From a virus: a stretch of 41,108 nucleotides of DNA. A program made the position numbers and the translations under genes. The stretch spans positions 1-41,108 of IMG/VR virus record IMGVR_UViG_3300036770_007224, one strand, 5' to 3'. The notes beneath the pieces were generated by a model. That model saw only the letters and a list, made by a program, of their open reading frames with translations. It had not been told where the DNA came from and did not search any database. Positions 1,890 through 33,397 of the stretch are shown here, piece after piece; within the stretch, counting starts at the first letter, position 1; the number at the start of each line of letters is the position of its first letter.

Positions 1890-3653
1890 ATGTCTTTGAC
1901 AAAAGAACAAGTATTACTCGAATATGCTAAGTGCTTAAAGAATACTCCTTACGCGCTGAAGACATATTTGCAAACTTATGATAATACTCAGTCGAGGTAT
2001 GTACCCTTGGAACTTTTTCCCGATCAAGTTAGTTTAGTCGAGGATTATGACAACTACGAAGAAAACATTGCACTGAAATACAGACAAGCGGGTGTGTCGA
2101 CTGTAACATCCGCATGGGCGTCCAAAAGGTTGGTTTTTGCCAAAAAAACCAAGCCTGAAAAAATCCTTATCATTGCTAACAAACAAGACACAGCCATTGA
2201 AATGGCAAATAAAATCAGATCTTTCGTTGAGCAATGGCCGTCGTGGGTTGGTGTAGGATTTTCAAATGAAAAAAACGCACAAAAACATTTTAAACTGAGT
2301 AATGGTTGTGAGGTAAAGGCGGTTGCAACTTCCAAAGACGCCCTCCGTGGATATACTCCAACAATCCTTATTTTTGACGAAGCGGCATACATCGATGCTG
2401 ATGAAGATTTCTGGTCGGCATGTATGGCATCACTTTCAACGGGTGGTAAGGTAATAGTAATATCTACACCCAACGGATTCGATCCTATTTATTATGGAAT
2501 TTATGAACAAGCCCTTAGAGGTATGAATGATTTCAAGATAACCGAAATGTTTTGGTATAGAGATCCGAGATATTCTAAGGATTTAAAATTGTTGAAAGTT
2601 AAGGACATTGTTCATTACATGTTGAATCGGGACGACTATAAAGACAATGAAATTACAATCGATTATAGTGATGTTTCACCCCGAGAAAGGAACTTCGAAG
2701 AATTAAAAAGTAAATTTAGTGATGGATACAAACCATACTCTTCTTGGTTCGAATCAATGGCTAAAAAATTGAAATTTGATAGGAGAAAAATTGCACAGGA
2801 ATTGGAGTGTAACTTTTTGGGTTCGGGTGATAGTGTAATCCCACCTGAAACTATCGAAAAAATCAAAGATAATTTCATATTACCCCCTGAACACAAATTT
2901 ATGGGAGGTGCATTATGGCAATGGAAAGAGCCGGTAATGGGACACAAGTACATTATGGGTATTGACGTTTCACGTGGTGATTCTGAAGACTTTACAACTT
3001 TCAGTATAATTGATTTCGATGAGCGAGAACAAGTCTTGGAATATTTGGGTAAAATACCGCCCGACGTAGCGGCTGAGGTTGCCATAAAATGGGCTGTAAT
3101 GTATAATGCATTTGTTGTTATTGATATCACTGGTGGTATGGGAGTTTCTACATCAAGAAAAATGCAAGAACTTGGATACAAAAACTTATATGTTGATGGA
3201 ATCAATATTGCTGACAAATGGAAGTATAATCCAAAGGCAGATGAAAAAATCCCTGGAATAAACTTCAATAGTAAAAGAGTTCAAATTGTTGCGGCTTTTG
3301 AAGAAGCCTTGAGACACGATTTCAAAATCAGATCGAATCGTTTGTTGAATGAGTTGAACACGTTTGTTTATGTAAACGGACGACCTGATCACCTAAAAGG
3401 ACAACATGACGATTTGATTATGGCGTGTGCAATGCCGATTTATGTTGGAGAAACATCCTTTGCACAATTGGATAAAGTTACAGAAGTTACCAAAGCGATG
3501 GTAGAAAGTTGGACGGTAAATTCCTCACATAATAACCGAGTCACAGAGTTTAATCCAAGTGTTCCTGTTTTTCCTAACGAAAGAATGTCACAATTCAACA
3601 ATAATCCAACAAGACAAGAATATGAAAAGTATTCTTGGCTATTCGGTAGATAA
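1890..3653 (+). CDS. 17: Terminase large subunit, T4 gp17 type
   Basis: This is the packaging motor ATPase plus headful nuclease that docks on the portal. The ATPase half shows a deviant Walker A at residues 64-71 (YRQAGVST, with Val where T4 gp17 has Lys), Walker B with the catalytic Glu at 160-164 (LIFDE), and a coupling motif VISTPNG at 190-196. The RNase H-fold nuclease half shows the three metal-binding acidic positions: D359 in GIDVSRGD, D412 in VVIDITGG, and D507/D508 in GQHDDLI. At 587 aa it is close to T4 gp17 (610). The ATG at 1890 is preceded by an A-rich leader without Shine-Dalgarno. Portal follows after 48 nt; the sheath and tube genes found between 17 and 20 in T4 are absent here. 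Confidence 0.95.
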   Translation: MSLTKEQVLLEYAKCLKNTPYALKTYLQTYDNTQSRYVPLELFPDQVSLVEDYDNYEENIALKYRQAGVSTVTSAWASKRLVFAKKTKPEKILIIANKQDTAIEMANKIRSFVEQWPSWVGVGFSNEKNAQKHFKLSNGCEVKAVATSKDALRGYTPTILIFDEAAYIDADEDFWSACMASLSTGGKVIVISTPNGFDPIYYGIYEQALRGMNDFKITEMFWYRDPRYSKDLKLLKVKDIVHYMLNRDDYKDNEITIDYSDVSPRERNFEELKSKFSDGYKPYSSWFESMAKKLKFDRRKIAQELECNFLGSGDSVIPPETIEKIKDNFILPPEHKFMGGALWQWKEPVMGHKYIMGIDVSRGDSEDFTTFSIIDFDEREQVLEYLGKIPPDVAAEVAIKWAVMYNAFVVIDITGGMGVSTSRKMQELGYKNLYVDGINIADKWKYNPKADEKIPGINFNSKRVQIVAAFEEALRHDFKIRSNRLLNELNTFVYVNGRPDHLKGQHDDLIMACAMPIYVGETSFAQLDKVTEVTKAMVESWTVNSSHNNRVTEFNPSVPVFPNERMSQFNNNPTRQEYEKYSWLFGR

Positions 3654-3680: not shown

Positions 3681-3687
3681 TATTTAT
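3681..3687 (+). promoter_or_regulatory. Putative late promoter element TATTTAT before portal gene
   Basis: TATTTAT followed by TATAAAA begins exactly 21 nt before the portal ATG. The same spacing recurs at four other genes on both strands. Role as the -10 of a phage late promoter is inferred. Confidence 0.55.
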
Positions 3688-3701
3688 TATAAAACTCGTA
3701 A

Positions 3702-5549
3702 ATGGCAGATAATAATTTAACAGTTTGGCAGAGGTTAAGTAAAGTTTTTGGACCTGATTCAACATTGGATCAGCAAACGCCTGTCTATCAATTTGATAAA
3801 AAGGAACTGCTAAGAACCACTTCGAAGCAAGAATACGAAAAAGAAAAACTCGAAGCTCAACAAACTTTATATTTGGGACAACAATGGGCTAAGGTTGAAA
3901 GTAATCTTTATAGTCAATCCGTATATTACGAACCCACAAGATTATCTGCTTTTTACGATTATGAAAGTATGGAGTATACTCCTGAAATTTCTGCAGCCTT
4001 GGATATCTACGCTGAAGAATCCACAACAACCAACGAAAATGGTTTTATGTTACAGATTTATTCAGAGTCTAAAAGAATCAAATCGGTTTTAGCTGATTTG
4101 TTCAATAACAAGTTGGATATCAATACTAACTTACCAATGTGGACTCGAAACACATGTAAGTATGGTGATAATTTTGTCTACATAAAACTAGATCCAGATA
4201 AAGGAGTAGTGGGTTGTCAACAACTTCCAAATATCGAATTGGAAAGAATTGAAAGGGGAATGAAATACAAACCTTTAGATCAAAACCAACAAGGCGAGAG
4301 TAGAGGATTGAAATTTACTTGGAAAAACAAAGATTTGGAGTTCAACACATGGGAAGTTGCCCACTTCAGACTTTTAGGTGATGATAGAAAGTTACCATAC
4401 GGTACTTCCATGTTGGAAAAAGCAAGAAGGATATGGAAACAATTACTTCTTTCTGAAGATGCTATGATGATATATCGTGTATCAAGAGCACCCGAAAGAC
4501 GAGTTTTTAAAGTATTTGTAGGAAACATGGATGATAAGGATGTAGAGCCTTACGTACAAAGAGTTGCTAACAAATTCAAAAGAGATACGGTAGTTGACAA
4601 CAAAACAGGTAACGTTGATTTGAGATACAACCAAATGGCGGTAGATCAAGATTACTTTATACCTGTTAGAGATCCGAACGCACCTAATCCTATTGATACT
4701 TTACCTGGTGCTACTAATTTATCCGAAATTGCCGATATTGAATACATTCAAAAAAAGTTACTAACGGCGTTGAGAGTACCCAAAGCTTTCCTTGGTTTCG
4801 AAGAGGCGGTTGGTGATGGTAAAAACTTAGCATTACAGGATATTCGTTTTGCAAGAACAATCAACAAGATTCAAAAGTCAATGATTCAGGAATTGAATAA
4901 AATTGCAATTATTCATTTATATGTTCTTGGGTTTGAGGATGAACTTTCAAACTTCACACTTTCATTAACAAATCCGTCAACTCAAGCTGACTTACTCAAA
5001 GTTGAGAATTGGCAACAAAAAATCGCATTGTACAAAGATGCTGTGGCAGACCCTGGTAACGGTATTCAGCCAGTTTCATCCTCATGGGCTAAAAAACACA
5101 TTTTAGGTTTTTCCGATGAAGAAATCAAACTTGACATCCAACAACAAAGAATAGAAAAAGCCGTAGCTTCAGAATTGGAAAAAACACCTGAAGTTATCAT
5201 TCATACAGGTTTGTTTGATAATATTGACAAATTATATGGTAAAAAACCCGGTGAAGAAGCTGGTGAATCTGAGGGTGAAGAAGGAGCAACTGATTTGGGT
5301 GCTGATTTAGGAGGTGATTTAGGTGCCGAACTTGGAGGACCTGGTATCACAGATGTAGGAGGTGCGGAAACTGAAACACCTGAAACACCAGCAGGTGGCG
5401 AAACAGTTCCTGAATCAAAAGAAAAAGATTTGAATCTGATACTTGAAACCAATAACTTTTTACAAGAAGATTTGGAAATTAATTTATCAAAGGCAAAAAA
5501 CCCTATAAGTCAGATTTCAAAAAAACTTGGTGAGTTATTAAATGATTGA
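3702..5549 (+). CDS. 20: Portal vertex protein, T4 gp20 type
   Basis: It forms the dodecameric ring at the unique vertex through which DNA enters and to which the terminase and neck bind. The central block is the classic gp20 signature: YGTSMLEKARR then WKQLLLSEDAMMIYR and SRAPERRVFKVFVGNM at about residues 225-275, and later an AFLGFEEA segment in the stem region. At 615 aa it exceeds T4 gp20 (524). The excess is a Gly/Glu-rich, low-complexity stretch at about 515-580 (GADLGGDLGAELGG) before a short helical C-terminus. The start is fixed by the TATTTAT element 21 nt upstream and by the conserved-looking N-terminus. It directly follows terminase. Confidence 0.95.
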   Translation: MADNNLTVWQRLSKVFGPDSTLDQQTPVYQFDKKELLRTTSKQEYEKEKLEAQQTLYLGQQWAKVESNLYSQSVYYEPTRLSAFYDYESMEYTPEISAALDIYAEESTTTNENGFMLQIYSESKRIKSVLADLFNNKLDINTNLPMWTRNTCKYGDNFVYIKLDPDKGVVGCQQLPNIELERIERGMKYKPLDQNQQGESRGLKFTWKNKDLEFNTWEVAHFRLLGDDRKLPYGTSMLEKARRIWKQLLLSEDAMMIYRVSRAPERRVFKVFVGNMDDKDVEPYVQRVANKFKRDTVVDNKTGNVDLRYNQMAVDQDYFIPVRDPNAPNPIDTLPGATNLSEIADIEYIQKKLLTALRVPKAFLGFEEAVGDGKNLALQDIRFARTINKIQKSMIQELNKIAIIHLYVLGFEDELSNFTLSLTNPSTQADLLKVENWQQKIALYKDAVADPGNGIQPVSSSWAKKHILGFSDEEIKLDIQQQRIEKAVASELEKTPEVIIHTGLFDNIDKLYGKKPGEEAGESEGEEGATDLGADLGGDLGAELGGPGITDVGGAETETPETPAGGETVPESKEKDLNLILETNNFLQEDLEINLSKAKNPISQISKKLGELLND

Positions 5550-5557
5550 TATTTATA
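5550..5557 (+). promoter_or_regulatory. Putative late promoter element TATTTATA
   Basis: TATTTATA followed by an A-run begins exactly 21 nt before the ATG at 5571; its first base is the last base of the portal stop region (TGA at 5547-5549 precedes it). Confidence 0.5.
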
Positions 5558-5570: not shown

Positions 5571-6302
5571 ATGAAATCGTTCGGACAAATCAAAAGTAAT
5601 TTCGAAAGTGCACTAGTTAAACACTATGGGAAAGACTCATTCAAGTCGCTTATAAAAAATTTCAAAACAGTTGTTTTGGAAAGTAAAAATCTATCACAAG
5701 TTTTTTACTTGTACGATGAATTACAAACAAAGAAATCTCTTTCTGAAGATGTTGCTTCAGAATATTTGAACGAAAGTTTTTCCACTTTAAAACATCTAAT
5801 CGAAAAGTCCAAACAAGAAATTGAGTCACTACAAACATGGGTGGAGACATTAATTGAAGGAGATGTTGAAAATTCATATCACAATATTGATACAGTACTT
5901 TACTCAAATTCGGTAACTAAAATTCAAGAGGTTGTAGAGGCTAAATTGAATATCAAAAAAATTATAACCTCTAAAGAAACTCAAACTGTAACAGAATCAT
6001 TAAATTTACCATTATCTTCCATGTTGAAAATAGCGGCAAATACCTTCAACAACGAATACTCAAATCTTGAGGAGGACGATAAAAGTAAGTTGAAATATTT
6101 GTTGTCTCTTAATAAAACACAATTGGTTGAAGAATTCGAGAAGACAAAAAAAGAAGTTCTTACAAAGTTGAATGAATCTTTAAAAGATAACGAAGATTCA
6201 GAACTTAGACTTACAATTGAACAAACTATCGGAAAAATTAATGAATCTGAAGTTGAATTGGTTTCTTTATATAAGTTAACACAACTTAAAGAAAACCTTT
6301 AA
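5571..6302 (+). CDS. Unrecognised helical head-cluster protein (243 aa)
   Basis: The protein is Lys/Glu/Ser/Leu-rich and almost entirely predicted helix (SLKHLIEKSKQEIESLQTW; KLKYLLSLNKTQLVEEFEKT), with no cysteine and no catalytic motif. It sits between portal and prohead protease, where T4 keeps the small prohead core genes 67 and 68. A prohead core or scaffold-assisting role is therefore possible, but I see no sequence match to those. It has its own TATTTAT element at the common 21-nt spacing. Its TAA overlaps the stop of the convergent bS21 gene by four bases, with no terminator hairpin between them. Confidence 0.8.
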   Translation: MKSFGQIKSNFESALVKHYGKDSFKSLIKNFKTVVLESKNLSQVFYLYDELQTKKSLSEDVASEYLNESFSTLKHLIEKSKQEIESLQTWVETLIEGDVENSYHNIDTVLYSNSVTKIQEVVEAKLNIKKIITSKETQTVTESLNLPLSSMLKIAANTFNNEYSNLEEDDKSKLKYLLSLNKTQLVEEFEKTKKEVLTKLNESLKDNEDSELRLTIEQTIGKINESEVELVSLYKLTQLKENL

Positions 6303-6493
6303 TTTTCGTCTTTAGATTTAGTTTTTGAAGTATAAATTGCTTTCAATTTATCTTCACGCTTTTGGACTGACTTTTTCACAAACTCTTGTTTATTTCTTAA
6401 TTGTTCGAGCTGCTTAGTCTTGATGACTTTATATTTGTATCGTTTGAGGACTTTATCAATATTTTCCCCTTTTTTTACTTCAATGTGAATCAT
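6299..6493 (-). CDS. rpsU: Ribosomal protein bS21, phage-encoded
   Basis: The 64-aa protein matches bS21 along its length: an N-terminal beta strand (IHIEVKKGENID), the conserved VLKRYK block where cellular bS21 has ALKRYKRKF, then LEQLRNKQEFVKKSV and a basic helix ending KAIY. Cellular bS21 sits on the 30S platform next to bS18 and the 3' end of 16S rRNA. With the ATG at 6493 the Tyr in KAIY is residue 54, the position of a tyrosine that in Flavobacterium ribosomes helps hold the anti-Shine-Dalgarno tail. A TTG at 6496 is possible but unlikely, because the TATTTAT element lies exactly 21 nt before the ATG. It is a single minus-strand gene inside a plus-strand head cluster, and its leader is A-rich with no Shine-Dalgarno. 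Confidence 0.88.
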   Translation of the reverse strand: MIHIEVKKGENIDKVLKRYKYKVIKTKQLEQLRNKQEFVKKSVQKREDKLKAIYTSKTKSKDEN

Positions 6494-6507
6494 CAATTTT
6501 TTTTTTA

Positions 6508-6514
6508 ATAAATA
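6508..6514 (-). promoter_or_regulatory. Putative late promoter element TATTTAT before bS21
   Basis: On the minus strand TATTTATTAAAAAAAA begins 21 nt before the ATG at 6493, the same geometry as at portal and protease. It supports the ATG over the upstream TTG, and late expression of bS21. Confidence 0.55.
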
Positions 6515-6597
6515 TGACTGTTCATATCATTTTTGACAATTGATAGTTTAATTTTTATAATTGTTTATACAATAAACATTTTACATTCATATGATTA

Positions 6598-7050
6598 ATG
6601 AAAAAGGGAAAAACTTCCAAAATAAATTTGTTCGAAAAAGCAAAATGTCATTACGGCACCGTTGACTCAAAGAACTTCAAGTCCGTATATATTGTTTTAC
6701 AAACATGGGTTTCACCAAAAAAAGAATTGGAACAGTGGGAAAGAACGACATCAAATTTACACAGAAAAATTAAACACACCATTTGTGAAGTTTTGGATTC
6801 ACTATATTTTGAAAAAAACTTTATAGTTGATTTAGATTTACGTAGTAGTGGTATACAGATGGATAAAAGAAGTTTCATGAATTTAGAAATCACTCTTTTT
6901 CTCAAAAACGATGTCGATTTCAAAAGTCCAATTCTCAAAGAAAAATTAAAATCCACAATCAGTAGTGTTTATAGGTATGATTTATTGGATTCCGAACATT
7001 TTACCCTTCATAAAACAAAAACAGAAAAATTAGTGGATATTCAAGAGTAA
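6598..7050 (+). CDS. Unrecognised 150-aa protein in the head cluster
   Basis: The protein mixes predicted strands and helices: a basic N-terminus (MKKGKTSKINLFEKAK), VYIVLQTWVSPKKELEQW, a helix with HRKIKHTICEVL, then alternating hydrophobic strands (FIVDLDLRSSGI, NLEITLFLK) and a final helix. The alternation suggests a small alpha/beta fold rather than a coiled coil. I do not recognise the family. The start is the ATG at 6598; an overlapping ATG at 6591 is in another frame. No good TATTTAT element sits at the usual spacing (the closest is TGTTTATA at 6562). It ends 25 nt before the prohead protease gene. Confidence 0.75.
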   Translation: MKKGKTSKINLFEKAKCHYGTVDSKNFKSVYIVLQTWVSPKKELEQWERTTSNLHRKIKHTICEVLDSLYFEKNFIVDLDLRSSGIQMDKRSFMNLEITLFLKNDVDFKSPILKEKLKSTISSVYRYDLLDSEHFTLHKTKTEKLVDIQE

Positions 7051-7054
7051 TGAG

Positions 7055-7062
7055 TATTTATA
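7055..7062 (+). promoter_or_regulatory. Putative late promoter element TATTTATA before prohead protease
   Basis: TATTTATATATAAAAAAG begins exactly 21 nt before the ATG at 7076 and just after the preceding stop codon. Confidence 0.55.
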
Positions 7063-7075: not shown

Positions 7076-7801
7076 ATGAAGGTTTTAAGTCCAGGGGAAA
7101 TTGGTAAAGGCATTCTAATAGAATATGATGCGGGACATGTGTCTCCATACGATACAAGGAATCTAGAAGTTTTAAAAGAACAAAAAACTCAATTAGATTA
7201 TTCAAAACCATTTGAGTTCTATGCCGTTTTACAAAAATACAACACACCGAATCGTAATGGTAGAATCTACCCTGAAAAGGTATTGAAGAGAGAAGCTGAA
7301 AACTACAAAAGAGCTATCGAAAAGGGAACTTCCCTTTCTGAGTTGAATCACCCCGAATCTTCCTTGATAGATTTGGATAGGGTATCTCACATTATTACCG
7401 ACATTTGGTGGGAAGGAAATGTTTTAATGGGTAAGTTAAAATTATTAACTTCACCAGGATTTCATGAAAGAGGTGTAATATCGTGTAAAGGTGATATGGC
7501 GGCTAACTACCTAAGACAGGGGGTTACCATGGGAGTATCATCAAGAGGTGTTGGTTCATTAGTTAAAAAAGGGGAACAAAATGAAGTCCAAGACGACTTT
7601 GAATTAATTTGTTTCGATTTAGTTTCTTCACCATCCACACCAGGGGCTTATTTGTTTTCTAACAAAGAAGATCGATACAAGTATGAAGAAAACTTGGAAG
7701 AAGAGAAAAAAATAAAAGACGATAGAATCGTAAGTTCATTATCGAATTCTAACAAGTCACTTGACTTAATGAGAAAATTATCGGATTATTTAGGAAATTA
7801 A
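7076..7801 (+). CDS. 21: Prohead core protease, T4 gp21 type
   Basis: This serine protease degrades the scaffold and trims capsid proteins before DNA packaging. The diagnostic N-terminal block YNTPNRNGRIYPEKVL (residues 55-70) is present, followed by the catalytic His in ELNHPE (H92), the nucleophile Ser in MGVSSRG (S155 or S156) and an acidic residue in CFDLVSSPS (D181). This is the usual His-Ser order of the assemblin-like prohead protease fold. At 241 aa it is slightly longer than T4 gp21 (212), with a charged helical C-terminus (about 195-241). It precedes a DUF4494-like gene, and the scaffold and capsid genes lie beyond a terminator. Confidence 0.93.
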   Translation: MKVLSPGEIGKGILIEYDAGHVSPYDTRNLEVLKEQKTQLDYSKPFEFYAVLQKYNTPNRNGRIYPEKVLKREAENYKRAIEKGTSLSELNHPESSLIDLDRVSHIITDIWWEGNVLMGKLKLLTSPGFHERGVISCKGDMAANYLRQGVTMGVSSRGVGSLVKKGEQNEVQDDFELICFDLVSSPSTPGAYLFSNKEDRYKYEENLEEEKKIKDDRIVSSLSNSNKSLDLMRKLSDYLGN

Positions 7802-7806: not shown

Positions 7807-8013
7807 ATGGACGAAAAATATTTTATTGCAAAAGTACAGTATGATTTACCTGATGAAAATTCAGGAAGAGTAAAAAAAATTCGTGAGGAAAAACTTGTTC
7901 AAGGTTACAACGTCACTGAAGTTGAAACAAAGGTGACAAAAAAATTTGAAGGATTTCCACATGATTGGAGAATTACTTCTGTTGCCGAAAGCAAAATTGA
8001 TGAAGTTTTTTAA
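7807..8013 (+). CDS. Small DUF4494-like protein
   Basis: This 68-aa protein reads YFIAKVQYDLPDENSG, then KKIREEKLVQGYNVTEVE, then ending WRITSVAESKIDEVF. The pattern (an aromatic and a KVxY strand, a Gly/Lys turn, a charged segment ending in a TEVE helix, and a final strand ending in a hydrophobic-Phe) resembles DUF4494, a short family of unknown function common in Bacteroidota and their phages. It begins 5 nt after the protease stop and is followed by a terminator, so it is the last gene of that unit. The family assignment is from memory of the pattern only. Confidence 0.75.
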   Translation: MDEKYFIAKVQYDLPDENSGRVKKIREEKLVQGYNVTEVETKVTKKFEGFPHDWRITSVAESKIDEVF

Positions 8014-9644: not shown

Positions 9645-11450
9645 ATGGGAGCATTATTAGAATCAGGTCTTGTTGGTAACATCGGTCTTAAGCACTTGAA
9701 AGTTATCAAAGAAGACACAATCAACAAATGGGACAAACTTGGATTCCTTGAGGGTCTAAAGGGTCACTTAAAGGAAAACGTAGCTCAGTTATACGAAAAC
9801 CAAGCTTCATACTTAATCAATGAAGCTGCGTCTACAACAGACTCAGGTTCATTCGAGACTGTAGTTTTCCCAATCGTTAGAAGAGTTTTCTCTAAACTTT
9901 TAGCTAACGATATCGTATCAGTACAAGCAATGAACCTACCTATCGGTAAGTTGTTCTACTTCGTACCTAAAATCCAAAACAGAGCAAATAACAGTCACTT
10001 CGCACCTATCGGAGCACCAAACGGTCCTACAGATCCAAACGTAGGTTACGGTTCAGGTAAAAACCTTTACGATAGATTCTACGAAGGTACAGAACCAGGA
10101 TTAGATCCAGAAGGTTTGTTCGACTACTCTAAAGGAGAATACTCAGCAAGAACTGTAAATTTGGTTACACAAAGATGGGTTGGTGATAGTCTTTTGGCTT
10201 TCAACTACGCAGCTAACACAGAGTATAGAAAAGTTCTTGTTGCGATGTCAGGTTTCAACAACGCAGGTGCCGGTAAACTTATCGGACCTGATGGTAACGA
10301 AATGGACAACGAAGCTTTCTTGGCGGGATTGACTATTGCTATCAATGGTAACTCAGATATTAACTTCTTCTCAGGTTTGAGCTCAACTTCAGCAGTTGCA
10401 TCTAACGGTAACTTGTTGTTCAGAGTTGTAACTCAAGTATATGGTAAGGGTATCGTTCAGTATGGTTCACCAAACACTGCAACTGTATTCCCAACCACAG
10501 GAAACGGTGGTACTTACGACAACCTTTGTGACGCTAACGGCGTGATCTACTTGGAGATTGACACTCAAGTTCCATGTACAGTAACTGCAAACTCTATTGA
10601 CGGTTACTCAGGTTTCACTACAGGTACAGGTGCAACTAACGCAAACTCAGCGTTCACAGCTACATACAGAATTTACAAAGAATTGGAATTCGAAGATGCT
10701 ATCGGTGAAGTTTCTTTCGACCTTGAGTCAGTAACAGTATCTGTTACAGAAAGAAAACTAAGAGCTCAATGGTCTCCTGAATTAGCACAGGACGTTTCTG
10801 CGTTCCACAACATCGACGCTGAAGCTGAATTAACAGCTTTATTGTCTGAACAAGTTGCAGCAGAAATCGATCGTGAAATCTTGAGAGACTTGAGAAAAGG
10901 CGCGGCTTGGAACCTACGTTGGGACTACAACGGATGGAAAAGAGGAACTACCGCTAATCCATTGACTCAGTACACTCAAAAAGACTGGAACCAAACTCTT
11001 ATCACAGCTATCAACCAAATCTCTGCACAGATTCACAAATCTACATTGAGAGGTGGAGCTAACTGGATTGTTGTTTCTTCTGAAATCAGCGCTATCTTTG
11101 ACGACTTGGAGTACTTCCACGTTTCAAACGCGGCTCCTGAGCAAGATCAATACAACATGGGTATCGAAAGAGTTGGTACATTAGCAGGTAGATATCAAGT
11201 ATACCGTGATCCTTACTTCCCACCTAACACAGTATTGTTGGGACACAAAGGTACATCATTACTTGACACTGGTTACGTTTACGCACCATATGTACCTCTA
11301 CAGTTGACTCCAACTATGTACAACCCATTCAACTTTACACCTATCAAGGGTATCATGACAAGATACGCTAAGAAAATGGTTAACAACCGTTTCTATGGTA
11401 GAATCACAGTTGATGGTGTTAGAACATTCGACTTGAGAGAATTGAGATAA
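9645..11450 (+). CDS. 23: Major capsid protein, T4 gp23 type
   Basis: HK97-fold hexamer subunit. The N-terminal targeting/delta region (LLESGLVGNIG, NKWDKLGFLEGLKGHL) is followed by YLINE-AAS, which fits the gp21 cleavage rule (Leu/Ile-x-Glu then Ala): cutting after E60 would match the T4 site after E65. FPIVRRVFSKLLANDIVSVQAM begins the conserved core, and the C-terminus has MTRYAKK and FYGRITVDG. At 601 aa it exceeds T4 gp23 (521). A Gly/Ser/Thr/Asn-rich stretch at about 230-340 may be an inserted surface domain. Its codons look more selected (many AAC, TTC, TAC) than in neighbouring genes, as expected for a very abundant protein. It lies 23 nt after the scaffold gene and has no TATTTAT element of its own. 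Confidence 0.95.
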   Translation: MGALLESGLVGNIGLKHLKVIKEDTINKWDKLGFLEGLKGHLKENVAQLYENQASYLINEAASTTDSGSFETVVFPIVRRVFSKLLANDIVSVQAMNLPIGKLFYFVPKIQNRANNSHFAPIGAPNGPTDPNVGYGSGKNLYDRFYEGTEPGLDPEGLFDYSKGEYSARTVNLVTQRWVGDSLLAFNYAANTEYRKVLVAMSGFNNAGAGKLIGPDGNEMDNEAFLAGLTIAINGNSDINFFSGLSSTSAVASNGNLLFRVVTQVYGKGIVQYGSPNTATVFPTTGNGGTYDNLCDANGVIYLEIDTQVPCTVTANSIDGYSGFTTGTGATNANSAFTATYRIYKELEFEDAIGEVSFDLESVTVSVTERKLRAQWSPELAQDVSAFHNIDAEAELTALLSEQVAAEIDREILRDLRKGAAWNLRWDYNGWKRGTTANPLTQYTQKDWNQTLITAINQISAQIHKSTLRGGANWIVVSSEISAIFDDLEYFHVSNAAPEQDQYNMGIERVGTLAGRYQVYRDPYFPPNTVLLGHKGTSLLDTGYVYAPYVPLQLTPTMYNPFNFTPIKGIMTRYAKKMVNNRFYGRITVDGVRTFDLRELR

Positions 11451-20770: not shown

Positions 20771-21535
20771 TTATGAATCGGTGAACTTTTTCATCAATTC
20801 AAAGTACAAACTTTTATATTTTTTCAATGCACTTCTTATTTCTTTTGTAGTCATGTTTGTCATCTCCCTTAGAGAAAGAAGAATTATATTTTTATTGAAT
20901 TTGTTATTGTCATTTCCAATAAAAATTTCGTTGTAATTCTCAAATAAATCTATTAGTGCCTGCCCCAATTTACGTTCATTAGAATTTAAGTCGTTTGTCG
21001 ATATGAACTCTTTCAAATCTTTTATAAATTGATTTATTATTTGTTCAGGTTCTACTTTCTCAAATTCCAAATAATAAATCATATCAGGACGATTTTCTAA
21101 TGAAGATGAAATATCCTCGTAGGATATTTTTCTATTTGTTTCCTTTTGGTCTTTGATGATTTGTCCCATCAAATAGTTCTTACAAATAGTACCAAAGTAA
21201 GAATATGCTTTTTTATTCTTGTCGGGTTTGAACTTGTCTACTTTAGTTATCAAAAAAGAATGCGTATCATGGTGAATTTCGATAAAGTCCATATCCTTTC
21301 TGTAAAGTTTGTACCTACGAATAATAGACTCAATCATTTTGTCCAAAGGAGCTTTCAGAAACTCATTGTAAATTTGATTTTTTTCAGTAGAAGTTTGAGC
21401 GGTTAGAAACATTCTAACCGCCTCTTCTTCCCTGACATCAAAATAGTTGTTGTTTGTTGGTTTACGTCCTCGTTTTTTTATTTCAGACTGTTCAATTAAA
21501 TTTATTGAACTCCCACTTATTACGTCCAAAGTCAT
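20771..21535 (-). CDS. 55: Late-transcription sigma factor, T4 gp55-like
   Basis: Sigma-70-type region 2 is visible at about residues 95-135: KVDKFKPDKNKKAYSYFGTI followed by CKNYLMGQIIKDQKE, matching the gp55 pattern in which region 2 binds the host RNA polymerase clamp helices and reads the late -10. A C-terminal stretch (LREMTNMTTKEIRSALKKYK, about 222-245) has helix-turn-helix character, so at 254 aa this protein may have more than the minimal gp55 (185 aa). It is the last gene of the long minus-strand run and shares one base with the upstream glycosyltransferase stop. The TATTTAT elements in this window are its probable targets (inference). Confidence 0.82.
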   Translation of the reverse strand: MTLDVISGSSINLIEQSEIKKRGRKPTNNNYFDVREEEAVRMFLTAQTSTEKNQIYNEFLKAPLDKMIESIIRRYKLYRKDMDFIEIHHDTHSFLITKVDKFKPDKNKKAYSYFGTICKNYLMGQIIKDQKETNRKISYEDISSSLENRPDMIYYLEFEKVEPEQIINQFIKDLKEFISTNDLNSNERKLGQALIDLFENYNEIFIGNDNNKFNKNIILLSLREMTNMTTKEIRSALKKYKSLYFELMKKFTDS

Positions 21536-22338
21536 TAATCATTTTCAGGTTGATATTTTATTCCCCTGTCATCAATGAAAAAATATTCTTTTTTAGCCGA
21601 CTCAATCCAAAATTTGACTTCGTCATCGGACATTTTTGCTGTGTTATTTTTATAGTTCCAAAAAATCGAACCTTCTCTCATGTTGGTGTGCTTGTATCCA
21701 ATTTTTGGGATTGTCATAATTTTAGCTGAGTTGTAAGTAAGTCTCAGTAAAAGTTCATAAACAAACGTTAACTTGAATGATGGTTTGAAAGACCCAAACT
21801 CTTCTATTGTACTTTTTCTTATTACCATTCCACTGGATTGGAAATTTTGATAAGCCAACAACATTTCGTTTGTAAGGTATCCAATTTCTGAAGTCATACT
21901 AGCGGCAAAAGTTGCTTCGTTGGTAAAACCTGCGAAAGTACCTTTATCATCCACGTCTACCACCAAAGGTAAAAATCCATCAATGTCGGTATATGCTTCC
22001 ATATATTCTGCAACATTTTTGAACCAAATAGAAGAATACTCATCGTCGAACTCATAGAAAGAAACCCAACTAGATTTGGAGTTTTCTACGCCAACTTTTA
22101 TTTGATTGGCGTATGAAAAATCTCCTTCGTTTTTAACAATATTGACAGTCAACCCACTGAAGTCAAAGTTTGAAAGGTAGTTTTTCAAACTTTCTTCGTT
22201 TGAATGGACAATTACTAATTCATTTATGTCTACTGACTGATTTTTTACTGACAGAATTGCCTTAGTAAAGTAACTTTCAAAGTCTTTAGATTTTGAACTA
22301 CTAATTGGTAAAATTACTGATACGTCTATCTTTTTCAT
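21535..22338 (-). CDS. Family 2 (GT-A) glycosyltransferase
   Basis: The N-terminus DVSVILPISSSKSKDFE with ILSVKNQSVDINELVIVHSN is the typical nucleotide-sugar-binding start of GT2 enzymes, and YEFDDEYS near residues 95-101 is the metal-binding acidic motif. A later segment MVIRKSTIEEFGSFKPSF matches the acceptor-side part of the fold. At 267 aa it is a soluble single-domain enzyme without a membrane segment. It overlaps its upstream neighbour by four bases (ATGA) and the sigma gene by one. Donor and acceptor cannot be read from the sequence. Confidence 0.8.
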   Translation of the reverse strand: MKKIDVSVILPISSSKSKDFESYFTKAILSVKNQSVDINELVIVHSNEESLKNYLSNFDFSGLTVNIVKNEGDFSYANQIKVGVENSKSSWVSFYEFDDEYSSIWFKNVAEYMEAYTDIDGFLPLVVDVDDKGTFAGFTNEATFAASMTSEIGYLTNEMLLAYQNFQSSGMVIRKSTIEEFGSFKPSFKLTFVYELLLRLTYNSAKIMTIPKIGYKHTNMREGSIFWNYKNNTAKMSDDEVKFWIESAKKEYFFIDDRGIKYQPEND

Positions 22339-23402
22339 TGTTCTGATTCGTTTTTAATTTTTTCTACTTGTGACTCAAAATTTTGTAATCTGAGTTGATT
22401 ATATTCGTTGAATTTATGGAAGACATCTTTATTAAACTTTTCGTAATCAATATATTTGACAGCGGTTTCATGTCCCGAAGTATACAACTCCTCCGAAATG
22501 TTATCTTCCAACCAATTTTGTGTGAATTCTGCTAAGGTATCTACAATGTCCAAATATTCTGTAGTCCAAACACCGTTTGTTTCACTCATCCATTCAGGAC
22601 GTAGATGTGGAATTTTCCCAATGACTGGTGTGCCTGACAACATAGATTCCAATGGGAATGACCCAAAAGCTGACGTGTCATCTACCCAAACTGAAACAAA
22701 ACTTTCTTTAAGATTCTGTGCGAATTCTTCAAGAGTTAAACCTCTCATGTCTCTGAAAGTAATCCAACGGTATTGTGGATATTTCAAATAAAATGTTTTT
22801 ACAATTTTAGCAGTGTCTCTTTGGTCTCTAGTGTGAATTGTTACAACAGGTAATGGGGGTTTTTGTTTCTTACTGAAACCTTTATAAATTATTGGTTCAA
22901 TTACATCTATAGATACACTTTTGAAGATTGACTGTAAATAATTTTTTTGAGTCTCAGAAGTTGTTATTGCTTTGTATGTTCCGAATTGAATCCAAGTTGA
23001 ACCAGGTGCTAAAGTCTCTAAGGAGTAATCATACGATTGGCACAGTACAATTTTAGCACATGGTAGATTGGAAACTTGTTCGAGAGCATGTGCAAAAAGT
23101 TCGGGAATTATTAAAATATCTTCTGGTGATACTTGGAGTTTCTGTTCTTCTATATTTTGGTGTGGTAATTCAGTCATATATTCTTCTCCTAACCAATCAG
23201 CAACACCATCATATTCTTTTTTTTCGTGTAGGATAATCGGATTGAATCCACTATTCTTCAATGACATTGCCATGTCGTAAATGTGTTTGATACCCGCCTT
23301 AGCGTTTCCTTTAGTATCTTGGGTTAAAAAGAAAATTTTGTTTTCATTTTTCTTCAATATCTCAATGGAATTGAGAATTTTTTCTTGTAGTTCTTGACTC
23401 AT
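22335..23402 (-). CDS. GT-B glycosyltransferase (GT4-like)
   Basis: The 355-aa protein has the two-lobed layout of GT-B enzymes: an N-lobe with FFLTQDTKGNAKAGIKHIYD and MAMSLKNSGFNPIILHEKK, and a C-lobe with PVVTIHTRDQRDTAKIVKTF, VSVWVDDTSAFGSFPLESML and SGTPVIGKIP. The last is the ExxxxGxPVIG element that binds the nucleotide. The C-terminus is a long helix. It has no signal or membrane segment. It begins after a 6-nt gap from the preceding gene and overlaps the next glycosyltransferase by four bases. Confidence 0.78.
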   Translation of the reverse strand: MSQELQEKILNSIEILKKNENKIFFLTQDTKGNAKAGIKHIYDMAMSLKNSGFNPIILHEKKEYDGVADWLGEEYMTELPHQNIEEQKLQVSPEDILIIPELFAHALEQVSNLPCAKIVLCQSYDYSLETLAPGSTWIQFGTYKAITTSETQKNYLQSIFKSVSIDVIEPIIYKGFSKKQKPPLPVVTIHTRDQRDTAKIVKTFYLKYPQYRWITFRDMRGLTLEEFAQNLKESFVSVWVDDTSAFGSFPLESMLSGTPVIGKIPHLRPEWMSETNGVWTTEYLDIVDTLAEFTQNWLEDNISEELYTSGHETAVKYIDYEKFNKDVFHKFNEYNQLRLQNFESQVEKIKNESEQ

Positions 23403-23408
23403 TTTGGA

Positions 23409-23696
23409 TTAAATATTTTGAATAATATTATTAACTAATAATGTATTAAAAGCAATCTTAAAGGGAATACTTACTTCTCTTGATTTATTTGACAGCATTT
23501 CATCTATCGGTTCCTGCTCTGACATAACAACCTCCACCATAGTTTTTACAATTTCAAATTTTATGGGGCTTATTGTTTTTTCAGAATCACTGTTGTTTTC
23601 CATATCATTTGTATTTTGATGATTTGATTCTGTTTTTTTTTCTAACTCGTTTAAATCCAAGTAGTAAGTTTCTCCGAATACTTTAAACATTTGCAT
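23409..23696 (-). CDS. Unrecognised small protein (95 aa) in the sugar cluster
   Basis: It starts MQMFKVFGETYYLDLNELE; an alternative ATG two codons later (23690) would shorten the overlap with the upstream gene from 14 to 8 nt. After a Ser/Asn-rich linker comes a conserved-looking segment (IKFEIVKTMVEVVMSEQEP) and a hydrophobic C-terminal helix (IPFKIAFNTLLVNNIIQ). No family is known to me. It need not belong to sugar metabolism: it may be a phage core gene embedded in the run. Confidence 0.65.
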   Translation of the reverse strand: MQMFKVFGETYYLDLNELEKKTESNHQNTNDMENNSDSEKTISPIKFEIVKTMVEVVMSEQEPIDEMLSNKSREVSIPFKIAFNTLLVNNIIQNI

Positions 23697-24294
23697 TTTC
23701 TATAAAATTTTTAATGGATGGTACAAATTCCTCCAAAGTATCTATCGATAGTTTTGAGTTGACATCACTATTATAAAGTTTGTTAAATTTTACGATTTGT
23801 GTATCTTTTTTTGCGTTATTTATCAAATCAGGGTTTGCGGTAAGAATAATATCAAAATTGTCCCACAATGATTCTTGTGTGAGTTTAGAATAAAATTTGA
23901 TGTTCTCAACCAAACAACCATATTTGGCAAGAAAAAACAAGGTTGCGGGTTTACTCCTTTCCATTTCCTCTGAAATAATATAAACTTCATGACTATCCCT
24001 CAAAGATTTATAAATTTCATCCAAATTGTTGAATGTGTTTCCACTGACTGAAGGTGCATGTCCAAAAATCTCCATGGGAAAATCCACATAAAAGAAATCG
24101 TAAAAAGATTCTTCTGTTGGGAATGCAAAATGGTTGGACAGTGTTGTGGACGATATAGGTAAGTTTAAAGAGTATTCGAAAGATTCCTCACCTTCTTCAC
24201 TAACGTAATCATCAATAAAAAACTTTTTGTAAACCTGTTCCGCCTTACCCAAAGTATCTCTTACTACGCCGTTTATATCAATTGCTATTTTCAT
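23683..24294 (-). CDS. HAD-like protein with altered motif I (DxN)
   Basis: The N-terminus MKIAIDINGVVRDTLGKAEQ fits HAD motif I (DxDGVxxDT), but the second Asp, the general acid/base in phosphatases, is Asn. Motif II may be YIISEEMERSKP (Ser near residue 108), and DIILTANPDL near 150 could be the acidic strand. At 203 aa it is the size of phage 5'-nucleotidase-like HAD proteins. It is immediately adjacent to the HldE-like kinase, where a heptose-bisphosphate phosphatase would be expected in an ADP/GDP-heptose pathway, but similarity to GmhB is not apparent. Activity is uncertain. Confidence 0.65.
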   Translation of the reverse strand: MKIAIDINGVVRDTLGKAEQVYKKFFIDDYVSEEGEESFEYSLNLPISSTTLSNHFAFPTEESFYDFFYVDFPMEIFGHAPSVSGNTFNNLDEIYKSLRDSHEVYIISEEMERSKPATLFFLAKYGCLVENIKFYSKLTQESLWDNFDIILTANPDLINNAKKDTQIVKFNKLYNSDVNSKLSIDTLEEFVPSIKNFIENANV

Positions 24295-25047
24295 TTATAT
24301 TAATTTTTTACTTGGTAAAGCGACACCTCTTTTGGAAACAACTTCGGATGAAACTTCATTTGCAAAGTTAATTGATTTTTCAACATCTTTGTATAGAAAA
24401 TAGTGACAAGCAAATGATGAAATAAAGGTATCACCTGCACCACTAACGTCTATAGTTTCTTGAGGTTTTGGGGATGGATAAAATTGTTTCTTATACTTTA
24501 CTCCGTCCTTCCCTAATGTAATCAAGACATCAAGATTTTTTAAGATTGAATGGTTATTTTCAGATTCCTGTTTGTTCATCTTTATAAAAGTAAAACTTTT
24601 AACTTTTTTATGTTCGAGAATTTTTTTCGAATCCAAAAAAGACATTTTTGAATTTTTTGAAATGTAGTATAAATCATCTTGTGAGAGAAACCCTTTATTG
24701 TAATCACTCACCACGACAAAATCGTAGCCTTTCAAAGTTTTTTTATCTAATATTTTTTGATTGAATTTTTCTATATTTGTCTCACCCTCATCATATCTCA
24801 AAAACATATGATTTGATTTTTGTTCCACAAATCTAGTCTTAGTAATTTTCTCTTTTTGATGATAGAAATCAATTTCTGATTCAGGACAAAGAGTTTTCAA
24901 ATTGTTATAGACATTTCCCGCCATCCCTAAATTTGTTACTGTCGTAATTGGATTCAAGACGGGTACTGGCGCTTCGGGAGATATACGTTCAACTTTACAG
25001 TATATGAACTTATCCTCACAGAGTTCGCCGATTACTAATATTCTCAT
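24295..25047 (-). CDS. PfkB-family sugar kinase, HldE N-domain-like
   Basis: The start RILVIGELCEDKFIYCKVER followed by ISPEAPVPVLNP is the signature of the kinase domain of HldE/RfaE, which phosphorylates D-glycero-D-manno-heptose 7-phosphate at C1. The PfkB signature DVSGAGDTF is at residues 200-208, with catalytic Asp in GAGD. At 250 aa it is shorter than the about 320-residue kinase half of E. coli HldE, mainly in the lid and middle. The glycine-rich NLGMAGNVYNNL replaces the usual GGAANV. It overlaps the nucleotidylyltransferase gene by 32 nt, so the two HldE halves are separate but linked. The substrate could be another sugar phosphate. Confidence 0.8.
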   Translation of the reverse strand: MRILVIGELCEDKFIYCKVERISPEAPVPVLNPITTVTNLGMAGNVYNNLKTLCPESEIDFYHQKEKITKTRFVEQKSNHMFLRYDEGETNIEKFNQKILDKKTLKGYDFVVVSDYNKGFLSQDDLYYISKNSKMSFLDSKKILEHKKVKSFTFIKMNKQESENNHSILKNLDVLITLGKDGVKYKKQFYPSPKPQETIDVSGAGDTFISSFACHYFLYKDVEKSINFANEVSSEVVSKRGVALPSKKLI

Positions 25048-25441
25048 TGTTCAAAATCTTTGTTGTGGAGTATTCTTCTATTCTTTCAAAGAATATTATC
25101 TTTTTGACATATTGTGAACCTATTATTTTTTTTCCCTTATAGTCACTACCAATAACCATATAGTCAAGATTAAGACTCTGCATCAAATTTTCTAAAGATT
25201 CGTCAGTTCCAAAACTATAAACATTATGGATGTTTTTTATGTTTTTCAGAAATTCAATTCTGTCTGACAAATTATTAAAGGGTCGGGATTCACCTTTCAG
25301 TAGTTTTACTCGTTCATCACTATCAATACCTACGTGTAATTCACCAAATCTTGATGCAAATTCAAACATTCGTAAATGTCCCAAATGTAGTACATCGAAG
25401 GTACCATTAATCCAAACTTTTTTTGGGTACGGAACTAACAT
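25016..25441 (-). CDS. Sugar-phosphate nucleotidylyltransferase, HldE C-domain-like
   Basis: A 141-aa single-domain protein of the cytidylyltransferase-like superfamily: VWINGTFDVLHLGHLRMFEF contains HxGH (H19-H22), and EEYSTTKIL near residues 122-130 matches the ISTTxIL motif. Charged residues DSDERVKLLKG and RPFNNLSDRIEFL also fit HldE C-domain and glycerol-3-phosphate cytidylyltransferase relatives. With the adjacent kinase it would activate a sugar 1-phosphate, in HldE to ADP-heptose. The nucleotide used here cannot be told. It starts on the last base of the cupin stop (TGATG). Confidence 0.82.
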   Translation of the reverse strand: MLVPYPKKVWINGTFDVLHLGHLRMFEFASRFGELHVGIDSDERVKLLKGESRPFNNLSDRIEFLKNIKNIHNVYSFGTDESLENLMQSLNLDYMVIGSDYKGKKIIGSQYVKKIIFFERIEEYSTTKILNNENISNRRTL

Positions 25442-25827
25442 CAGCTTTGACTATCACCTTTCCAAACTCGGTAAGAATCTGAATCGAAATGTGTTGTGGA
25501 TACCTCGTAGATTGTACCATCAGTCAATGCTTGGAGTTGGTGTGGTTGTCCTGGACGTTGTCTTACAGTATCACCAACAACTAATGTCTCTTGTATCACT
25601 TCAGCGGTTTCTGTATTAATCCATCTGTATATGAATTCACCTTCTTGTACATACCAAGTTTCATCTTTAATCATATGGTAGTGCATTGAAAAACTAGCAC
25701 CCTTCTTGAATACTAAAAGTTTACCACAATATAGTTCGTTGTTTTCGAATATGATTTCATGTCCCCACCCTTTTGGTACATGGCATCCTTCACACTCACT
25801 TACATTTTTTATTAATGGTTTTTCCAT
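25441..25827 (-). CDS. Cupin, phosphomannose-isomerase type II-like
   Basis: I choose the ATG at 25827 (MEKPLIKNVS), one base after the upstream stop; an upstream in-frame ATG at 25872 would overlap that gene by 44 nt. Cupin motif 1 is complete: GASFSMHYHMIKDETWYVQEG (H49, H51, E56), and motif 2 GDTVRQRPGQPHQL gives the fourth ligand H96. The opening VPKGWGHE resembles the PWG-x-E start of type II mannose-6-phosphate isomerase C-domains. A role in feeding mannose phosphate or in isomerising a sugar nucleotide would fit its place between Gmd and the HldE pair. A precise reaction cannot be assigned. Confidence 0.78.
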   Translation of the reverse strand: MEKPLIKNVSECEGCHVPKGWGHEIIFENNELYCGKLLVFKKGASFSMHYHMIKDETWYVQEGEFIYRWINTETAEVIQETLVVGDTVRQRPGQPHQLQALTDGTIYEVSTTHFDSDSYRVWKGDSQS

Positions 25828-25828
25828 A

Positions 25829-26809
25829 CTATTTTTTTTTGTAATAATCCATCCAATATTCAACCATTTCATCCAACATACTCTCGAAAGTGTAAGTTGG
25901 AGTCCATCCGGTTTCTTTACAAAGTTTTGTATTGTCTCCTTTTAAATCATTAAGTTCCTCTGGACGTAAAAACTTTTCATCCAAAGTAACGAAATCCTGA
26001 TAATTCAAATCTAAACTTGAAAATACATATTCACACAAATCCCTAACGGAGTGTGAGATTCCTGTTGAACATACAAAGTCATCGGGATTTTCTTGTTGTA
26101 ATATCAACCACATAGCCTCCACATAATCTTTGGCGTGTCCCCAATCTCGTGTTGCTTCTAAGTTACCCAACTTTAGCTCGTTAGACAGTCCAAGTTTGAT
26201 TTTCACGGCTTCTTTTGCCACTTTATTTGTTACGAAGTTTGTGCCTCTTCTTGGCGATTCATGGTTAAATAGTATACCATTGGAGACAAACATATTGTAT
26301 GAGTTTCTATAGTTTCTACATATGTTGTATGAATAAACTTTGGCACATCCATAAGGTGAAACTGGATTAAGAGGGGTTGTTTCTCTTTGAAATCCATCGG
26401 TATCGATGGAGTTTCCAAACATTTCAGATGACGATGCCTGATACACTTTTGTATTTGGTTTGATTAGTCTTACCGCTTCCAAAAGATTCAAAGTACCTAC
26501 ACCAGTCACCTGAGCAGTGTATATTGGTTGATCGAAAGAAATTCTCACGTGTGACTGAGCCGCAAGGTTGTAAATTTCATCGGGTTGTACTTTTTGTATA
26601 GTATTAACCAAAGATGATAAATCAGTCATATCCGCGTAGTGTAAGTTTGATTTGATTTGTTCGTATACAGTATTTAATCTGAAGGTTTGATTTTCAGAAA
26701 CAGAGTTACGTTTTAGAGTTCCATGAACTTCATAACCTTTCTGTAATAAAAACTCTGCAAGATAGCTACCATCTTGTCCGTTAATACCTGTTATAAGTGC
26801 TTTTTTCAT
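25829..26809 (-). CDS. gmd: GDP-mannose 4,6-dehydratase
   Basis: An extended SDR enzyme converting GDP-D-mannose to GDP-4-keto-6-deoxy-D-mannose. It shows TGINGQDGSYLAEFLL (GxxGxxG, residues 8-14), NLAAQSHV, the catalytic SSSEMFG and YGCAK (Y153, K157), then the Gmd-specific FNHESPRRGTNFVT and LGNLEATRDWGHAKDYVEAM. At 326 aa it is slightly shorter than cellular Gmd (about 370). All active-site elements are present. It overlaps the ColD-like gene by four bases, and its product is the substrate of that enzyme or of the Fcl/ColC-type enzyme next to it. It needs GDP-mannose from the host. Confidence 0.95.
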   Translation of the reverse strand: MKKALITGINGQDGSYLAEFLLQKGYEVHGTLKRNSVSENQTFRLNTVYEQIKSNLHYADMTDLSSLVNTIQKVQPDEIYNLAAQSHVRISFDQPIYTAQVTGVGTLNLLEAVRLIKPNTKVYQASSSEMFGNSIDTDGFQRETTPLNPVSPYGCAKVYSYNICRNYRNSYNMFVSNGILFNHESPRRGTNFVTNKVAKEAVKIKLGLSNELKLGNLEATRDWGHAKDYVEAMWLILQQENPDDFVCSTGISHSVRDLCEYVFSSLDLNYQDFVTLDEKFLRPEELNDLKGDNTKLCKETGWTPTYTFESMLDEMVEYWMDYYKKK

Positions 26810-27960
26810 ACGTGTTTATTAACTATTGTAATTACTCTATTTAATTCTTCTTCTGTCATTAGATGGTTGTTTGGAATATACATACCGTACTCGTGAACTC
26901 GTTTTGCTATTGGAAGTTCAATTTTCTCATATCTTTCATACCAAAATGGATGTTCATTAATTGAACCACAAATTAAAGGACGACACTCAATATTATTGTC
27001 CATCAATTCTTTTGTTAGTTCTTTGATGTTTTCAGTTATAATAGGGTACGAGAAATTCGAAATCAATGAGTGTGTTGGAGGTTTGATTTTCCAACCGTTA
27101 GTTTTGATTTCATTATGGTATTTTAGATAATTTTTGTTTCTATTATACACAATAGTATCCAATTTTTCCAATTGTTGTAAACCAATGAACGCTTGTAAAT
27201 CTGTTGCTCTTAAATTGAAACCAGGGTAGTAAAAGGTATACAATGCTCTGAAATCTCCAATACCGTATTTATCACGGAGTTGTTTTTGTTTTTCGATTGG
27301 TAAGTCTCTATCCCATCCGTGTGAGCGTATTGACAATAAGATGTGATAAAGTTCCTCTGAATTTGTGGATATCATACCACCTTCTATCGTGGACATATGA
27401 TGTCCAAAGTAAAAAGAGAAAGTAGACAAGTCACCAAAGGTTCCGAGTTTTTTTCCGTCGTATAGTGAACCCGTTGATTCGCAAGTGTCTTCAATCAAAA
27501 GTATATCGTGTTGATTACACAATTCCATAATCTCGTTCATATGATTTGGGAATCCAAGCACATGAACTAAAATTATGGCAGCAGGGTTTTCCTCCTTAAT
27601 TATTTTTTTTAGGTAATCGATGTTCAAACCCAAATTGTCTTCATCACATTCACACATTATTGGTATCATACCAAGTTGCACTGCAGGTGTGACTGTTGTT
27701 ACCCATGATACTGCAGGAACTACGATTTTGTTATTTTTCAATTTACCTGAAAGTAATAAAGAGTATACTGCAGCTAAATTGGCAGATGAACCTGAATTCA
27801 CAAACACAGAATATTTTACTCCGAGCCATTCAGACCATTTCTTTTCAAACTCGACATTAAGTTGTCCTTTTGTTAATCTTGGATTGGTTCTTAACCAATC
27901 AATTAACTTTTCGATATCTTGGGTATCAATGGTGTCTTTAACTAAATCTATTTTTTCCAT
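26806..27960 (-). CDS. colD: ColD-like GDP-4-keto-6-deoxymannose 3-dehydratase (PLP, Lys replaced by His)
   Basis: DegT/DnrJ/EryC1 fold: FVNSGSSANLAAVYSLL (PLP phosphate), VPAVSWVTTVTPAVQLG, the PLP-nitrogen Asp in IEDTCES, and SFYFGHHMSTIEGG. In aminotransferases the last motif has a Lys (SFHPxKxxTxGEGG) that forms the Schiff base; here it is His (H187 from this ATG). That replacement defines ColD and CDP-sugar E1-type 3-dehydratases. The length, 384 aa, equals ColD (388) and there is no Cys cluster of the E1 iron-sulfur type. ColD removes the C3 hydroxyl of GDP-4-keto-6-deoxymannose. I use the ATG at 27960 (TGATG with the upstream stop) rather than the GTG at 27963. It lies between gmd and the fcl/colC-like gene. 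Confidence 0.83.
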   Translation of the reverse strand: MEKIDLVKDTIDTQDIEKLIDWLRTNPRLTKGQLNVEFEKKWSEWLGVKYSVFVNSGSSANLAAVYSLLLSGKLKNNKIVVPAVSWVTTVTPAVQLGMIPIMCECDEDNLGLNIDYLKKIIKEENPAAIILVHVLGFPNHMNEIMELCNQHDILLIEDTCESTGSLYDGKKLGTFGDLSTFSFYFGHHMSTIEGGMISTNSEELYHILLSIRSHGWDRDLPIEKQKQLRDKYGIGDFRALYTFYYPGFNLRATDLQAFIGLQQLEKLDTIVYNRNKNYLKYHNEIKTNGWKIKPPTHSLISNFSYPIITENIKELTKELMDNNIECRPLICGSINEHPFWYERYEKIELPIAKRVHEYGMYIPNNHLMTEEELNRVITIVNKHV

Positions 27961-28886
27961 CACTTTCTAATATTTGGGTAATTTTCATTGAACCATTTTA
28001 CGGTTTCTGTAATTCCATCTTTAAGACTTGTAAACTTAAAGTCTTCAGGTGCGTTTGAAATTGCGGGTTTTCTGAATTGTCCACGAGGTTTTGTATCGTC
28101 AAAGATTAAATTATCCCCATCAACACCCATTGACTTACATATTGTTTTTGCGGTTTCTAATATTGTAACTTCTTCGGGATTGATTGCCATAAATGCGTCA
28201 TCACTCTTCCAATTATCCATCGACCACAAAATAAGTTTTGCCAAATCTTCGGAGTAAATTAATTGACGAAGAGGTGAGCCGTCGCCCCAAACCAACATTT
28301 TTTCTTGATTTTTTTTTGCCAAGAATGCTCGATGAATCATCGCAGGTACCATATGTCCATCTTCTAAATGGAAGTTATCGTTCATACCGTAAACGTTTGT
28401 TGGTATAACTGAAACCCAATTTGATTTCAAAACATTTTTGACAATTTTCATTTCATATCCTGCTAATCTTTTTGCATATGAATATCCGTAGTTCGTAAAA
28501 TGAGGTGCTCCATTATCTATCTGATCGGGTGTCAATGGATATGTAACCTCTTTATCGGGAAAAATACAGGTAGATAAAAGATTAACGAAATTCGGTATTT
28601 CATTCCTAAATGCAGATTCGATAACGTTATTGTTCAGAATAAAATTATCTATAAAAAACCCTGTGTTGTTTTTCATATTCGCCTGTACACCTCCGACTCT
28701 AGCGGCACAGTTTATTATTGTGTCAACACCATTTCTCTTGACATGGTGCGTTATATAGTCCAATGTTTTTGTTCTATCGGTTAAGTCTACTTCATTCCTT
28801 TTGTGATAAACATGGTTTTCACCAAGTTGTTTTTTTAAAGCCGAACCAACTAAACCCTCAGAACCTAAAACTAAAATTTTTTTCAT
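27960..28886 (-). CDS. GDP-L-fucose synthase / ColC-type epimerase-reductase
   Basis: An extended SDR enzyme of the GDP-fucose synthase family: VLGSEGLVGSAL (GxxGxxG, residues 8-14), NCAARVGG, STCIFP with C107, GYSYAK with Y135 and K139, and DGHMVPAMIHRAF with H178. These match E. coli Fcl C109, Y136, K140 and H179 in order and spacing. Fcl epimerises at C3 and C5 and reduces C4 of GDP-4-keto-6-deoxymannose to GDP-L-fucose; ColC, in the same family, epimerises C5 and reduces C4 of the 3-deoxy product of ColD to GDP-L-colitose. With a ColD-like gene directly downstream, ColC is the more likely role, but Fcl cannot be excluded. Confidence 0.88.
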   Translation of the reverse strand: MKKILVLGSEGLVGSALKKQLGENHVYHKRNEVDLTDRTKTLDYITHHVKRNGVDTIINCAARVGGVQANMKNNTGFFIDNFILNNNVIESAFRNEIPNFVNLLSTCIFPDKEVTYPLTPDQIDNGAPHFTNYGYSYAKRLAGYEMKIVKNVLKSNWVSVIPTNVYGMNDNFHLEDGHMVPAMIHRAFLAKKNQEKMLVWGDGSPLRQLIYSEDLAKLILWSMDNWKSDDAFMAINPEEVTILETAKTICKSMGVDGDNLIFDDTKPRGQFRKPAISNAPEDFKFTSLKDGITETVKWFNENYPNIRK

Positions 28887-29944: not shown

Positions 29945-29945
29945 G

Positions 29946-33396: not shown

Positions 33397-33397
33397 A

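Follow-up and report, generated by a model that had tools for sequence, protein, structure and literature searches.

A 41,108-base virus record from IMG/VR (the whole of which is referred to here as the window) encodes what is probably a functional Bacteroidota-type bS21 of a T4-like phage, which would be made with virion proteins, enter the 30S subunits of the host and repress the host rpsU gene. We assign this reading as a whole a probability of roughly 0.7. The bS21 gene is intact and under purifying selection, and incorporation of its product into host 30S subunits is likely. The arrangement of the gene, its Tyr54, its late expression and the idea of a ribosome takeover were already published in 2022 (Chen et al., 2022; PMC9723584), and the window is one more example.

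The phage gene starts at the same ATG as its bS21 relatives, and Pfam, TIGRFAM, and PDB comparisons agree with the 64-aa bS21 framework that the initial annotation had read from this start. The profile search proposed there as a check returned bS21 above the cut-off with both PF01165 (E=2.3e-10, 40.5 bits versus a cut-off of 27; Pfam) and the bS21 equivalog TIGR00030 (E=1.4e-7, 31.2 bits versus a cut-off of 28.95; TIGRFAM). Among PDB chains, the top matches are bS21 of Flavobacterium johnsoniae (7jil_z; E=1e-10) and 9i5v_9, which is of the same bS21 type and also has KAIY. The window protein and F. johnsoniae bS21 (7JIL; PMC9976891) share 48% identity over the 60 aligned residues (1-60). Because this alignment is gapless, the window Tyr54 falls on the host Tyr54, in line with the earlier claim that the two residues coincide. 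When the window protein is aligned with the two host chains and with relatives from nine phage loci, the invariant positions are M1, L16, K17, K20, K22, T26, R33, K40, R46, K51, A52, and Y54, and residue 54 is Y in 67 of 68 viral bS21 sequences and F in the other one. Pairwise comparisons among the relatives gave dN of 0.04-0.16 against dS of 0.4 to saturation, and the gene has therefore been maintained. No match to the bS18 family was found in six relatives.

The gene is part of a T4-like head block (Table 1) with the order gp17-gp20-243 aa-bS21 (reverse)-150 aa-gp21-DUF4494-488 aa-gp23, and its stop codon overlaps that of the convergent 243-aa gene. This order is kept in 67 of the 69 viral loci that were found with the bS21 protein, and the two exceptions (L047 and L048) represent another lineage. 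In this second phage bS21 lineage, the gene (3717-3878 in L047 and 163-324 in L048) is located outside the head block, has a tRNA-like sequence upstream, and encodes a protein without the Y21/V23/Q28 signature. At the DUF4494 position of the window, a 68-aa protein (7807-8013, plus strand) matches only the C-terminal half of this domain and is found at the same place in relatives. The location of bS21 within the head gene block would also suit an extra-ribosomal function, such as that of an RNA-binding or virion protein that is encoded with the head genes and, for example, packaged and injected. Packaging is raised as a possibility by Chen et al. (PMC9723584). However, every ribosome-contact position examined is retained, Tyr54 included, which makes such a function very unlikely.

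Table 1. Features of the bS21 locus and the candidate sigma gene in the window (positions in the 41,108-base stretch).
Feature	Position	Strand	Remarks
gp17 large terminase	1890..3653	+	
gp20 portal protein	3702..5549	+	TATTTATT at 3681-3688 (-21)
243-aa conserved hypothetical	5571..6302	+	convergent side of bS21; TATTTATA at 5550-5557 (-21)
Phage rpsU (bS21)	6299..6493	-	64 aa from ATG 6493; MIHIEVKKGENIDKVLKRYKYKVIKTKQLEQLRNKQEFVKKSVQKREDKLKAIYTSKTKSKDEN; Y54 in KAIY
bS21 promoter element TATTTATT	6507..6514	-	first base at -21 from ATG
Neighbour promoter TTGACA-N17-TATAAT	6533..6561	+	on the bS21 strand, the -35 is GTCAA
AATAAAC	6571..6577	+	just 3' of the neighbour's -10; conserved in most relatives
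150-aa conserved protein	6598..7050	+	MKKGKTSK...DLDLRSSGIQ; adjoins bS21
gp21 prohead protease	7076..7801	+	TATTTATA at 7055-7062 (-21)
gp23 major capsid protein	9645..11450	+	
Sigma-like protein, 254 aa	20771..21535	-	candidate reader of TATTTATW

The gene is probably carried by a lytic, T4-like member of the phage group in Chen et al. (2022). No difference in kind was found between the window and the Bacteroidetes jumbo phages of the bS21 clades a-e in that article (PMC9723584), and the same gene block, the reverse strand of bS21, Tyr54, late expression (from metatranscriptomes), and the ribosome-takeover hypothesis are all present there. Common to both are a reverse bS21 between TerL/portal and prohead protease/MCP with two flanking conserved hypotheticals, an aromatic residue 54, divergent positions around 21-28, and LPS/sugar genes; the GC content is 33.8% in the window and 31.0-33.7% in the published phages. 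The promoter assignment, the divergent promoter of the neighbour, the Shine-Dalgarno (SD) comparison, and the natural control provided by locus L213 were not found in the text read of that article and are additions here. Based on portal protein sequences, the nearest isolates are Microcystis phage Mel-JY01, at 39%, and the Flavobacterium phages immuto, at 38%, which are too distant for a host to be named. The bS21 type, the SD-free genes, and the published group all point to a host that is very probably a member of Bacteroidota. The window also contains a long series of sugar-nucleotide/glycosyltransferase-like genes (21535-38138, minus strand), as read from the ORF translations.

For the expression of bS21, the sequence TATTTATW starts at exactly -21 in front of gp20, bS21, gp21, and the genes for the 243-aa protein and a 504-aa protein. 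These are five cases in the window, compared with 0.025 expected from shuffled leaders, and none of 2000 shuffles reached five. Counted over the whole window, the motif is only slightly enriched (18 versus 11.6), such that the signal lies in the placement. Virtually all phage bS21 genes of the block have the element upstream, and the individual genes of the sugar-gene run do not have it in front. In a 297-kb relative (behind L216), the motif has a consensus near TATTTATAATAAAA and is most frequent at -20 to -26 of the sense strand; the antisense strand shows no such peak. There, it precedes the genes for the portal, the protease, and an endolysin-like protein, and also those for DNA primase and superoxide dismutase; the presence of the latter two led us to reject TATTTATW as a strictly late element. 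The fixed -21 in the window might suggest that the ribosome recognises TATTTATW in the RNA, but this is not favoured given that the spacing in relatives is -20 to -26 and also -46. The T4 late consensus TATAAATA is not found on the bS21 non-template strand, which reads TATTTATT, its reverse complement, and we found no literature that names TATTTATA as a phage late promoter. TATTTATW can safely be called a promoter type of the phage that serves virion genes and is not purely late. The initial annotation had placed bS21 under a late-type promoter; the element is real and common to gp20 and gp21, but lateness does not follow from the motif. Instead, the term 'late' rests on the shared use with these two genes and on published metatranscriptomes (PMC9723584).

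A candidate for the factor that reads this element is a sigma-like protein that is present in all 12 of the block-type bS21-phage records tested, with 66-93% identity to the window protein in these 12 relatives. It has a weak sigma70 match (E=0.0022), and its leading Foldseek matches are all sigma subunits, but with E of at least 0.06. Each of these lines is weak on its own, and we regard the protein as a candidate sigma factor.

The divergent 150-aa neighbour, possibly the protein named bS21_CN by Chen et al., is closely linked to bS21. An independent search based on this neighbour recovered 80 loci, and bS21 was found alongside in 78 of the 79 that were testable. Its AF2 model has a pLDDT of 87.5, and the fold search gave no significant PDB match and one uncharacterised viral match. 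The TTGACA-N17-TATAAT promoter of this gene is kept in most relatives. On the bS21 strand, each locus has a single GTCAAAA-N16-20-TATTTAT, found exclusively upstream of bS21, and in one clade GTCAAAA forms the palindrome GTCAAAATTTGAC. The sequence GTCAAAA was considered as a bS21-specific operator, but it is better read as the -35 of the divergent promoter. At L213, the one locus without bS21, two other small genes take its place; TATTTATW is missing, and the neighbour's promoter is kept. This locus serves as a natural control by which each element can be assigned to its own gene. The same locus retains the neighbour without bS21, and thus the neighbour is not strictly dependent on bS21.

The phage genes are essentially free of SD sequences. 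SD pairing was found for one of 42 genes in the window and for 13 of 271 genes in a relative (4.8% versus 4.2% after shuffling), which bears out the earlier description of the phage genes as SD-free. For bS21 itself, the best anti-SD pairing of the window leader is -0.6 kcal/mol, far from the extended SD of autoregulated Flavobacteriales rpsU genes (below -13 kcal/mol). Among 80 Bacteroidota rpsU leaders from one pattern-based scan, in which SD-less paralogs are included, 46 pair at -7 kcal/mol or better and 34 reach -13, whereas the 32 distinct leaders of phage bS21 include none that pairs at -7 kcal/mol or better (Fisher p=9e-10). The contrast drawn in the initial annotation between a phage gene without SD and SD-bearing host rpsU genes is therefore real and quantitative.

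Some chromosomal genes resemble phage bS21 in this respect. In Muricauda/Allomuricauda genomes, the chromosome has two to three additional bS21 genes whose SD is weak or missing (L073, L084, L143 3001-4818, L116, and L127; L258-L271), whereas the canonical chromosomal rpsU has an SD pairing of -17.5 kcal/mol. In three such genomes, one paralog is followed by genes for an NYN-like protein and an RpoD-like sigma factor. The paralogs share the KVR-TKQ signature with phage bS21 and differ from it in being chromosomal. Five of these paralogs group as sister to the phage clade (SH-aLRT 83) in a bS21 tree that is based on only 64 columns and in which most deep forks are weak.

Comparison of 68 distinct viral and 77 distinct host bS21 sequences revealed consistent differences in one region, with Y/F21 in place of R, V23 in place of F, I/Y24 in place of D/E, K27 in place of G (K in some hosts too), and Q28 in place of T/V/A. 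Part of the viral set was retrieved via the neighbour gene, so this signature is not merely a product of the search. These substitutions agree with the divergent region reported by Chen et al. (2022; PMC9723584), in which the fourth divergent site (Asp25) corresponds to D24 in the reference numbering used here; the window protein has the phage-type residues Y21, V23, and Q28 at those divergent sites. The altered face formed by positions 21, 23, 24, 27, and 28 may change mRNA selection, although this is speculative, and the conserved Tyr54 argues for a host-like function rather than a new specificity.

The function of the host protein provides the basis for the proposed mechanism. In F. johnsoniae, Tyr54 holds the 3' tail of 16S rRNA, the Y54A substitution, truncation, or depletion of bS21 raises SD-dependent translation, and ribosomes carrying a truncated bS21 (DeltaC) are poor at initiating on mRNAs that lack an SD (PMC9976891). 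The F. johnsoniae rpsU gene has an extended SD, is autoregulated, and is best translated by ribosomes that lack bS21 (PMC9976891); the phage gene differs from it in having no SD and in residues 21, 23, 24, 27, and 28. A link between phage bS21 and this autoregulation was already drawn by McNutt et al. (2023; PMC9976891). Phage bS21, made together with virion proteins, would replace host bS21 in 30S subunits through exchange or during assembly. Because Tyr54 is retained, the anti-SD should stay sequestered, which would favour the SD-less phage messages. Translation of host rpsU depends on ribosomes that lack bS21 and recognise the strong SD of this gene. A large excess of phage bS21 should therefore switch it off, and the phage gene, without SD, would escape the autoregulatory loop. 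The phage-type residues at 21-28 may, more speculatively, alter the choice of mRNA.

A simpler explanation is that the phage only tops up bS21 to keep ribosomes replete through a long infection, when host transcription has stopped, leaving mRNA choice unchanged. The retention of Tyr54 and of the remaining invariant positions fits this explanation, as do the SD-less phage genes, and the DeltaC and depletion data (PMC9976891) indicate that high bS21 alone would be enough to favour SD-less phage messages. However, a top-up does not need the consistent phage-specific changes at 21, 23, 24, 27, and 28 that are seen in more than 60 distinct sequences, and we consider a plain supplement plausible at less than even odds. 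Alternatively, phage bS21 in ribosomes may act mainly in host shut-off, by lowering host translation or repressing host rpsU. When expressed in E. coli, bS21 of the Pelagibacter phage HTVC008M, which is likewise phage-carried and is the single phage bS21 with such an assay, enters 70S ribosomes, and GFP synthesis falls to about 5% (PMC6375957); poisoning of host translation is thus as compatible with that result as re-targeting. Moreover, a protein that has Tyr54 and is produced independently of the loop would be expected to repress the SD-dependent rpsU (PMC9976891). Nevertheless, the pelagiphage case mixes phyla, as this bS21 was acquired from an alphaproteobacterial host and is not of the Bacteroidota type, and the promoter type of the window gene is common to virion genes, which still need to be translated. 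Shut-off as the main role is therefore unlikely. In the boldest version, bS21 would be a self-sustaining switch acting on the autoregulation of the host, which fills all 30S subunits, shuts the SD-dependent rpsU, and alters mRNA choice through the changed N-terminal helix, with the 150-aa neighbour helping the exchange, which we regard as improbable.

Our preferred reading remains that of a functional bS21 that enters host 30S subunits and represses host rpsU. The anti-SD is hidden in Bacteroidota ribosomes, with bS21 as its regulated lid. The phage protein keeps the lid residue and drops the host control signal, which makes the question of specialised ribosomes testable in a well-studied host. 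The comparisons yield predictions for the repression of host rpsU, for the effect of the clustered changes at 21-28, and for the function of the linked neighbour.
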